Shown piece by piece: positions 5,568-35,571 of a stretch of 64,000 nt of DNA. Position 1 is the first letter of the stretch. Each line of letters begins with the position of its first letter. The stretch is from Halorubrum depositum. GTDB lineage: Archaea > Halobacteriota > Halobacteria > Halobacteriales > Haloferacaceae. The translations under genes and the position numbers were made by a program. The notes beneath the pieces were generated by a model that was not told where the DNA came from, ran no database searches, and was given only the letters and a program-made list of their open reading frames with translations. The stretch is from contig NZ_VCNM01000001.1 of NCBI RefSeq assembly GCF_007671725.1, forward strand, positions 372,001-436,000, in the 5' to 3' direction.

Positions 5568-6851
5568 TCAGTCGCGGAAGAACTCCTCGCGCTCGAACGG
5601 CTCCGCCTCGCCCTCGACGGCGACGACGTCGAGGGCGGTGACCGCGGCGCCGACGCCGAGTAGGCCGGCGAGGCTCGGCTCGGTACGTCCCTCGTCTCCC
5701 GATATCAGCTCCTTGATGTAGAGCCCGCCGGCGCCGTGGATCTCGACGGTCGCGTGCCGCGGGTCGTCGAGCTCGGCGGTCGCCTCGTACACGTCGCGCT
5801 CGCGGGTGAGGCTCGCGCGCCGGTGGTCCACTCGGTTCGGGGTGTACTGCTCGACGGTCGTCCCCTCAAGCTCGTCGACCGCCTCGGCGAGGGCGTCGGC
5901 GTCGACGTCGGCGTCGAAGGTCACCTCGGCGCGGTAGCGCTTCGTGGCCTCTAGCTCCTTCACGCGCTCGACCATGTCGTAGGTCGCGAGCCGGAGCCCC
6001 TCGACCTCGACGGCGCCGTCAGCGAAGGCGTTGATGTCCGACTCCAGTCGCTCGACGTCGACCCGGCGACGGCGCGGCTCCTCGACCTCGATCACGAACG
6101 GGCGGCCGGTGCCGAGCATGAGCGCGTCGACGTCCTCGCGGCCCGCGCCGTGGAACGTCGCCTCCGTGCCGTCCATCACGTCCTCGACGATCGGCGCGGT
6201 GTACTCCTCGACGCTGTCGTCGTAGAGGTAGCCGGAGCCGCCGCAGTGGTCGCAGGGGTCCGCGCCCTGTCGGCCCGAGCCCTTGCACTCGCGGCAGGGC
6301 CACTCGGTCTGCGGGATGTCGCGCTCCAGTTTTCTGTATCGCCCGTAGACGAACGTCGAGTTCACCTTCGCGTCGATCTCGTCCTCGGCGAGGTCGATCG
6401 TGAACTGCACGTCCGGGCGGTCGAAGGAGACCTCCGCCCCGGTGAGCCGGCCGAACCGCTTGCCGACCTCGCGGTTGAACTCGGACTTGAACGGCTCGCC
6501 GGCGTCCTCGTCGAGGCCGGCGTCCGTGCGGAGCAGCGCCTCGTTCTCCTCGATCAGCGGCGGCGGGCGCGTGCCGACGTTGTACGTGGCGAACTCGATC
6601 CCCTCGACCGCCTCGGCGGCGCGCTCGGCCCACGCGTCGAACTCGGCGCAGCGACCCTCGCAGACCCAGCAGTCGGCGGTCTCGACCGGCTCGTGGTCCT
6701 CGTCGTCGCGCAGCGCGAGGGAGACGCGCAGCGCCGATCCGCGCTCGGCGTTCGACAGCCCGAAGCTCCGGTCGGCGACGAGCCGCCCGAGACAGGCGTC
6801 GCACACCGGTCCCGTCTCGGTCGCCCGCGCCGCGACCTCCAGTACGTCCAT
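5568..6851 (-). CDS. pus10: tRNA pseudouridine(54/55) synthase Pus10
   Basis: The 427-residue protein makes pseudouridine at positions 54 and 55 of archaeal tRNA. It has paired cysteines (CDAC at 17-20 and CWVCEGRC at 61-68, plus CREC 186-189 and CDHC 200-203), a THUMP-like central part and the catalytic motif GREDVDALMLG with Asp240. The C-terminal half contains the pseudouridine synthase core (THRRASLTR-type region and a GLYIKELISGDEGRTEPS loop). The open frame extends upstream to 6923, but the ATG at 6851 gives the normal N-terminus (MDVLEVA). It diverges from the small zinc protein gene at 6980. Confidence 0.95.
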   Translation of the reverse strand: MDVLEVAARATETGPVCDACLGRLVADRSFGLSNAERGSALRVSLALRDDEDHEPVETADCWVCEGRCAEFDAWAERAAEAVEGIEFATYNVGTRPPPLIEENEALLRTDAGLDEDAGEPFKSEFNREVGKRFGRLTGAEVSFDRPDVQFTIDLAEDEIDAKVNSTFVYGRYRKLERDIPQTEWPCRECKGSGRQGADPCDHCGGSGYLYDDSVEEYTAPIVEDVMDGTEATFHGAGREDVDALMLGTGRPFVIEVEEPRRRRVDVERLESDINAFADGAVEVEGLRLATYDMVERVKELEATKRYRAEVTFDADVDADALAEAVDELEGTTVEQYTPNRVDHRRASLTRERDVYEATAELDDPRHATVEIHGAGGLYIKELISGDEGRTEPSLAGLLGVGAAVTALDVVAVEGEAEPFEREEFFRD

Positions 6852-6979
6852 ACGCCCTCCAGCGGCCCGCGTGGTAACTGTCTTACTACATCGCGGGCGG
6901 TCGGCCGCCGGCGGCCGGACCACGAGACGCCCCCTGCTCTCCCGGCCGACTTAAGAGGGTCCGATTCGTTTCGCCGGGC

Positions 6980-7366
6980 GTGAACGAGTCGGCGTCGCGG
7001 GAGGAGAAGCTGGAGCTCGGCGTCGAGCTGCTCGCGCACCTCGAGCACGAGGAGCTGTCGCTGCCGGACGCCATCGACCGGATCGAGACGGTGACGACGA
7101 GCCCGTCGCTCACCCGCGAGATCCTCGACGCCGCCGAGAAGCGCGGCGTCATCGAGCGTGAGAACGCACGCCTCAAAGTCCAGCGCGGCGGCACCTACGT
7201 GAACTACGACAGCCAAGTGATCCAGCGAGAGGGCGAGTTCGAGTGTCGTCGGTGCGGGACCGGTATCACCACCGGTCACTTCGTGAAACTCGACGCGGGC
7301 GAACTCGGCCCATTCGGCTCCTCCTGCATCCGGAAGGTGACCGGGCGGGACGACGACGGGGAGTGA
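6980..7366 (+). CDS. Small conserved haloarchaeal protein with zinc-ribbon-like C-terminus
   Basis: The 128-residue protein starts at GTG 6980. Residues 1-75 look like a winged-helix or helical domain (REEKLELGVELLAHLEHEELSLPDAIDRIE). Residues 85-125 hold a CRRCG knuckle with a later single Cys in GSSCIRKVTG, a possible incomplete zinc site. It resembles a conserved haloarchaeal family that I recall as DUF5830, without certainty. The promoter lies in the 128-bp spacer shared with pus10. The function is unknown; a MarR-like regulator is possible. Confidence 0.8.
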   Translation: MNESASREEKLELGVELLAHLEHEELSLPDAIDRIETVTTSPSLTREILDAAEKRGVIERENARLKVQRGGTYVNYDSQVIQREGEFECRRCGTGITTGHFVKLDAGELGPFGSSCIRKVTGRDDDGE

Positions 7367-7385: not shown

Positions 7386-7710
7386 CATTTATAAATGATA
7401 GACCGCGGTGGCGCGTGCCTTCGAGGCCGCCTCGCGGCCGAGGAGCACGCGCGAGGGAGTCGGACCGGCGCGGCCGCGCCGGTCCGACGAGGCTGGGGAG
7501 GCGTGAGGCTGCGGTCGCTGTGCGGGCGGGACTTGAAGGGGCAGCCGCGAGGACGAAGCACGGCGTTCACGAGAGCTTCGCTCTCGTGAGCCAATCAGAA
7601 CGCTTCGCGTTCTGATGACGATGTAAGGACCGCAGGGAACGAGCGAAGCGAGTGACTGAGGACCACAGCGAGCCGCGCGAGTCGTCGCGGCTGGGGCTTC
7701 GGAGGTGGCC
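7386..7710 (+). repeat. Dispersed structured repeat, copy A (candidate ncRNA with own TATA box)
   Basis: Copy A of an element also present in reverse orientation at 35319-35571. It begins with a TATA-like TTTATAAATG (7388-7397), then GCGGTGGCGCGTGCC (7405-7419), a 6-bp stem (7425-7430 with 7434-7439), GCGCGAGGGA, a 30-bp perfect palindrome (7459-7488), and a long conserved core (7488-7549). Two strong hairpins follow near 7567-7617, then the closing module (7666-7707, GAGCCGCGCGAGTC then GGCTGGGGCTT). The conserved blocks match copy B, while the stems differ in sequence but still pair. Short ORFs cross it but are not conserved in frame and look spurious. Confidence 0.7.
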
Positions 7711-35318: not shown

Positions 35319-35571
35319 GAACACCTCCAAAGCCCCAGCCTCGAGGACTCGCGCGGCTCGTTGTCGTTCGAAAGACGCTTCGCGCCTCTGGCAGCCGGCG
35401 GCACCGCCGCCGGCGACTGCCCCTTTGAGTTCCACCCCGCACAGCAACCGCAGCCTCACGCCTCCCCAGCCTCGCGGCTCCCTTCGGTCGCCGCGTCCCT
35501 CGCGCGTGCGACTCGCGCCCGGTGGGCGCTCGTCGGCACGCGCCACCGCACATCCATTTTATAAATAAGCG
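35319..35571 (-). repeat. Dispersed structured repeat, copy B (candidate ncRNA)
   Basis: Reverse-orientation copy of the element at 7386-7710. Read on the minus strand it begins with TTTATAAAATGGATG, then GCGGTGGCGCGTGCC. A 6-bp stem GCGCCC/GGGCGC follows (35515-35520 with 35524-35529), then GCGCGAGGGA and a stem CGCGGC/GCCGCG (35473-35478 with 35490-35495). The conserved core (35413-35475), a GCCGGCGG hairpin and the closing module (35322-35364) complete it. It is shorter than copy A because the variable hairpin region is reduced. Small frames crossing it are judged spurious. Confidence 0.7.

Follow-up and report, generated by a model that had tools for sequence, protein, structure and literature searches.

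A structured repeat with two copies in the window

In the 64-kb window (the whole stretch of DNA analyzed here), a DUF5830 gene and an adjoining archaeal Pus10 gene are found at 5568–7366, and a structured unit, copy A (7386–7710, plus strand), lies 3′ of the DUF5830 gene. Copy B occupies 35565–35322 on the minus strand. The two belong to a family with 71 copies in the source genome, as detected (E ≤ 1e-5) with a covariance model built on 37 copies, copy A included. Copies A and B score 85.9 and 74.6 bits with this model and nothing else in the window exceeds 23.5 bits, so they are not chance matches. An earlier note had described two copies in opposite orientation with common blocks, a core and a closing module. 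Every part was found again, and the extent given there for copy A is correct. Both copies contain GGTGGCGCGTGCC, GCGCGAGGGA, the core GAGGCTGGGGAGGCGTGAGG and the closing module CTGGGGCTTYGGAGGTG.

The unit is about 250–330 bp long and consists, from 5′ to 3′, of a TATA-like box, a GGTGGCG block, hairpin H1, a GAGGGA block, hairpin H2, the core, a variable linker and the long-range helix P3. H1 is composed of an outer arm, a three-pair center helix, a tandem G.A and an inner stem. The arms of P3, CAAAG-GGG-CAG and CTG-GGG-CTTTG, are mostly about 80–250 nt apart and flank a longer stem, which may contain nested two-hairpin modules; in copies that lack this stem, the arms are separated by a few nucleotides. 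GAGGGA and GAGGYTGGGGAGGNGTGAGG form invariant purine-rich blocks, and the unpaired blocks pointed out earlier are indeed kept across copies.

In copy A, the TATA-like box TTATAA (7389–7394), which is kept in orthologues, precedes the first block and H1 (7407–7452). This region was assigned from the covariance model and the alignment, and the single-sequence centroid has the same helices: the H1 outer arm (7411–7418/7445–7452), the center helix (7420–7422/7442–7444), the tandem G.A (7423–7424/7440–7441) and the inner stem GGCCGC/GCGGCC (7425–7430/7434–7439). The nearly invariant, unpaired GAGGGA (7453–7458) is followed by H2, an exchangeable hairpin cassette that is here a 30-nt palindrome (7459–7488), the core GAGGCTGGGGAGGCGTGAGG (7489–7508) and a GC-rich variable linker (7509–7533). 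The P3 5′ arm TGAAG-GGG-CAG (7534–7544) pairs with 7691–7701 across a long 3′ domain (7545–7690) closed by CCGCGAGGAC/GTCGTCGCGG, and the 3′ arm and tail read CTG-GGG-CTTCG-GAGGTG (7691–7707). A nested two-hairpin module, CACGAGAGC..GCTCTCGTGAGCCAATCAGAACGC..GCGTTCTGATGACGA, is located at about 7563–7621 within the 3′ domain. All seven occurrences of this module found in the source genome sit within element copies, and the module also matches by itself in plasmids of other haloarchaeal genera.

Copy B shows the same arrangement on the minus strand, with TTATAA at 35559–35564, the first block and H1 at 35502–35547, GAGGGA at 35501–35496, H2 at 35495–35474 and the core GAGGCTGGGGAGGCGTGAGG at 35454–35473. 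Its P3 region (35322–35427) has the arms CAAAG (35427–35423) and CTTTG (35332–35328), with a nested two-hairpin module between them. The stem differences reported earlier are present: the H1 inner stem is GCGCCC/GGGCGC in copy B, and the 30-nt palindrome of copy A is replaced by CGCGGC..GCCGCG.

Many copies end in 57-bp tail units that repeat the P3 3′ arm, and truncated copies and tail-only units also occur. At some loci (e.g. L100, L208 and L231), the arm is repeated in tandem with a spacing of mostly 51, 54 or 57; these spacings are multiples of three, yet every frame contains stops. The spacers of the 57-bp units are homologous and drifting, not unique, and a CRISPR array was therefore rejected. 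A coding function was rejected likewise: the length of H2 modulo 3 is unconstrained (89/59/88 in 236 copies), from which we conclude that the element is non-coding, and the tail units have stops in all frames. The small open reading frames that cross the element are thus not conserved as proteins, as had been suggested.

Copy number and distribution

BLAST of copy A against its own genome returned 71 matching stretches at ~40 places, and a core-pattern search added others. A search of haloarchaeal genomes, which the earlier note had proposed, found the family in all 23 same-genus genomes searched, with 16 to at least 104 copies each; judging from the distribution of the family, this genus is almost certainly Halorubrum. 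Two of these genomes (G017 and G019) contain just 16–17 copies, and the remaining ones 44 to at least 104. Across the order, 41 of 194 sampled genomes match at 1e-6, including 12 of 12 from the same genus and many from one other genus; outside the genus, the distribution within the order is patchy. Among the matches listed, the core GAGGYTGGGGAGGNGTGAGG is present in many Halorubrum species and in Haloparvum, Halorussus, Halosimplex and Halobellus. A relative carries about 100 copies. The related genome G007 gave 105 hits, none of them on its second contig.

No match to the exact core pattern was found in 2.9 million viral contigs, and the phage records searched contain no match to the family. 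Plasmid records, searched with copy B as query (without the nested module of copy A), yielded three matches. Virus or plasmid cargo was rejected on these results. In Rfam 15, no covariance model matches the family, and the same search recovered the archaeal RNase P at locus L006 as a positive control; a known RNA family was accordingly rejected. At this locus (1497–1844 and 1913–2225), an element copy and the gene for the archaeal RNase P RNA are ~70 bp apart in tail-to-tail arrangement, and the orthologue of this copy in G007 (L230) is among the few with nearly identical hairpins. A published description of the family or the core sequence was not found in the literature searched. The family apparently represents an undescribed structured dispersed repeat, as the earlier note had supposed.

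A conserved single-strand fold

Covariation in a wider alignment had been set beforehand as a test of the proposed structure, and it lies far above both shuffles and slid partners. Among 101 model-aligned copies, 93.1% of 2566 cells are paired and 425 cells have changed on both sides, compared with 129 ± 8 in shuffles; sliding the partners by 1–3 columns reduces the paired fraction to 20–49%. This alignment was fitted to the structure and thus leans towards the model. In a plain MAFFT alignment, 81.4% of cells are paired, and changes on both sides number 107 versus 43. Pairing thus persists through two-sided changes more often than in the controls, although the copies are not independent of each other: since they exchange hairpins, p-values and shuffle controls make the evidence look stronger than it is. 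The compensatory stems claimed earlier stand as far as maintained pairing is concerned, but the differences between stems largely reflect exchange of whole hairpins, not independent substitutions.

H2 is Watson–Crick paired in 1160 of 1188 cells, a count restricted to copies with at most one non-pair in the cells considered, and 179 distinct H2 sequences were seen. The best single structural argument is P3, because its arms are far apart (about 10–250 nt in covarying copies). Its arm pairs are CAAAG/CTTTG (165), CGAAG/CTTCG (19), GAAAG/CTTTC (2) and GGAAG/CTTCC (1); copy A has TGAAG/CTTCG instead of the CAAAG/CTTTG of most copies, and Haloparvum and Halosimplex have GAAAG/CTTTC. An A-T pair of P3 has changed to G-C in 22 copies, with six mixed cases, and the GGG/GGG internal loop is nearly invariant (205 copies).

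In the orientation read here, G-T outnumbers A-C by 71 to 16 (for H1, counts come from 90 of 274 copies that were parsed), and at the first P3 stem pair, T-G outnumbers C-A by 34 to 3. This asymmetry points to a single strand in this sense, either RNA or single-stranded DNA. Folded alone, copy A gives a centroid with H1, H2 and the P3 domain (z = −4.6), and the fold of copy B alone is matched by many shuffles (z = −1.3). Taken together, the family conserves a single-strand fold comprising H1 with its tandem G.A, H2, the purine-rich core and the long-range P3.

A TATA-like box upstream of H1

As stated in the earlier note, TTATAA occurs at a similar short distance before the first block in both copies, starting 18 nt (copy A, 7389) or 17 nt (copy B, 35564) ahead of GGTGGCG; other copies have it mostly at 15–18 nt. 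Among 19 source copies with the box and their counterparts in G007, 18 pairs keep it, compared with 66% identity over the rest of the 75 upstream bases, and the box is therefore probably under selection. The earlier proposal that it serves as the element's own promoter is only partly borne out by its position. The start of TTATAA is 19–20 nt from the H1 5′ arm and 29–30 nt from the H1 center helix, so a transcript starting at the usual archaeal distance from the TATA box would begin inside H1 and lose its 5′ arm. The haloarchaeal BRE, CGAAA (PMC4983044), was not seen at its usual place by TTATAA. This would be accounted for by atypical transcription starts, by folding of the complete element in read-through RNA, or by another function of the box.

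Genomic context

The copies are nearly all intergenic: 44 of 52 lie between called genes, and 8 overlap a call, several of these calls being weak. Among the 50 copies with both neighbors called, 20 are in convergent gaps; of 50 gaps in the window, 10 are of this kind (p = 9e-4), an expectation derived from one 64-kb window with a simple GC-based home-made gene caller. In tandem gaps, the two orientations occur 11:12. This even split and the preference for convergent gaps fit an independent unit better than a UTR element that belongs to a single gene. The source genome contains one TnpB (PF07282) gene, more than 4 kb from the nearest copy, and as it adjoins none of the copies, a TnpB guide RNA (OMEGA) was rejected for this genome.

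Fixed sites and exchanged hairpins

For a comparison of sites, 90 copies of G007 were taken with their flanks. Both flanks and the orientation are shared with G007 at 36 of 52 source-genome copies, which indicates that most copies were inherited in place; six further copies share at least one flank, and a separate search added one more shared site. At locus A, the element is absent directly after the gene in most other Halorubrum, where unrelated sequence is found instead; clean empty sites were sought there and none was found. At one site, G007 carries the element and the source genome lacks it, and the site shows neither a clean insertion nor a target duplication. Judging from these sites, gain and loss of copies do occur. 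By eye, no terminal inverted repeats or target-site duplications were seen in the copies inspected, and the ends of the element are not sharply defined.

The hairpins do not follow the loci. Across 29 orthologous loci, H2 has a median identity of 0.63, versus 0.60 for random pairs, and the closest H2 at a non-orthologous locus reaches 0.96; at 11 of these loci, H2 is found letter-for-letter at another locus. H1 shows the same trend more weakly (0.83 orthologous versus 0.78 random). The H2 of copy A is present at five other loci of G007 and absent from the orthologous one. Orthologous H2 sequences that resemble each other little more than random ones, together with near-identical H2 sequences elsewhere, indicate that hairpins move between loci as units. 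From sequence comparison, it thus emerges that hairpins are traded among copies as cassettes, with positions largely inherited. The exchange may be gene conversion, which is efficient in polyploid haloarchaea (PMC11276520).

Comparison with known systems

REP/BIME-type bacterial repeats are intergenic palindromes, of which a genome contains tens to hundreds, often at the 3′ ends of genes. The family resembles them in all these respects, but is far longer and has unpaired conserved blocks, a long-range helix, strand asymmetry and whole-hairpin exchange. HEARO, omega and TnpB guide RNAs are likewise structured RNAs in many dispersed copies, whereas the family has no Rfam match and no TnpB adjoining its copies in the source genome. 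Haloarchaeal sRNAs are usually single genes. They resemble the family in being intergenic and possibly having their own promoter (e.g. Haloferax volcanii, PMC5892119), and differ from its 71 paralogous structured copies.

The PATEs and SMRs of Haloquadratum walsbyi are, like the family, multi-copy, transposase-free, palindrome-rich haloarchaeal repeats, with repeats nested in palindromes and core deletions that leave terminal-only forms (PMC3119063). The near-terminal palindromes of PATEs are also found in IS605-type transposons, and PATE insertions are strain-specific (PMC3119063). In contrast, the family has mostly fixed sites, no TnpB adjoining its copies in the genome examined, a covarying RNA-like fold and a TATA box that is probably selected.

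Possible nature of the family

The explanation that we favor, to which we assign about an even chance, is a resident RNA-carrying dispersed repeat. Transcription of the unit in the orientation read here would yield a structured RNA. Its invariant unpaired core (GAGGGA, GAGGYTGGGGAGGNGTGAGG and perhaps the P3 GGG/GGG loop) may bind one shared cellular factor, with the stems as a replaceable scaffold. Recombination between short conserved blocks, aided by polyploid gene conversion, would spread hairpins among loci. More speculatively, because convergent gaps are preferred and the orientation to neighbors is not fixed, the unit may act locally at the 3′ ends of genes, keeping convergent transcription apart or terminating it, and not as a classical trans-acting sRNA.

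The same palindromes could instead act in DNA, as double-stranded or cruciform sites for a nucleoid protein, a topoisomerase or recombination in the manner of REP/BIME repeats, with template switching or gene conversion, and not selection on RNA, keeping the arms perfect. Near-perfect palindromes swapped as cassettes, the preference for convergent gaps and the random orientation in tandem gaps speak for such a repeat. We nevertheless consider it unlikely: long unpaired blocks are kept in one strand, the excess of G-T over A-C in the strand read here (71:16, and 34:3 at one P3 pair) runs against it, and template switching hardly explains the 5-bp P3 helix, whose arms are mostly at least ~80 nt apart. 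A non-autonomous mobile element similar to PATEs, MITEs or HEARO, with a structured RNA, spread by a trans-acting enzyme and now fixed at most sites, would account for the high copy number, the patchy presence between genera, the truncated and tail-only forms and the locus occupied only in G007. At least 36 of 52 copies at orthologous sites, an absent site without clean insertion or target duplication, the lack of the family in the virus and phage records searched and its near absence from plasmids, and a sole TnpB located away from all copies make this rather improbable in our judgment.

Still less probable is an element that acts in cis for the upstream gene, as its 3′ UTR, terminator or processing signal. 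Read-through from that gene would provide the H1 5′ arm that a TATA-driven start loses. Of the 50 copies for which an upstream gene was called, 31 lie behind one that runs in the same direction, often within 60 bp; the other 19 have no co-directional upstream gene, and the tandem-gap orientation is even.

As a resident RNA-carrying repeat, the family might, more tentatively, represent a multi-locus RNA family with fixed chromosomal addresses, in which complete hairpins are traded among 70–100 loci, so that each genome holds a reshuffled modular set with one constant core. The variable hairpins would then possibly carry locus-specific or fast-evolving information. The favored explanation would give archaea a large structured RNA-like family that is absent from Rfam and reaches about 100 copies in some genomes. 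The family also illustrates that high covariation in repeat families can stem from cassette exchange and not only from base-by-base compensation, and it offers a natural system for following the exchange of hairpins between dispersed loci.
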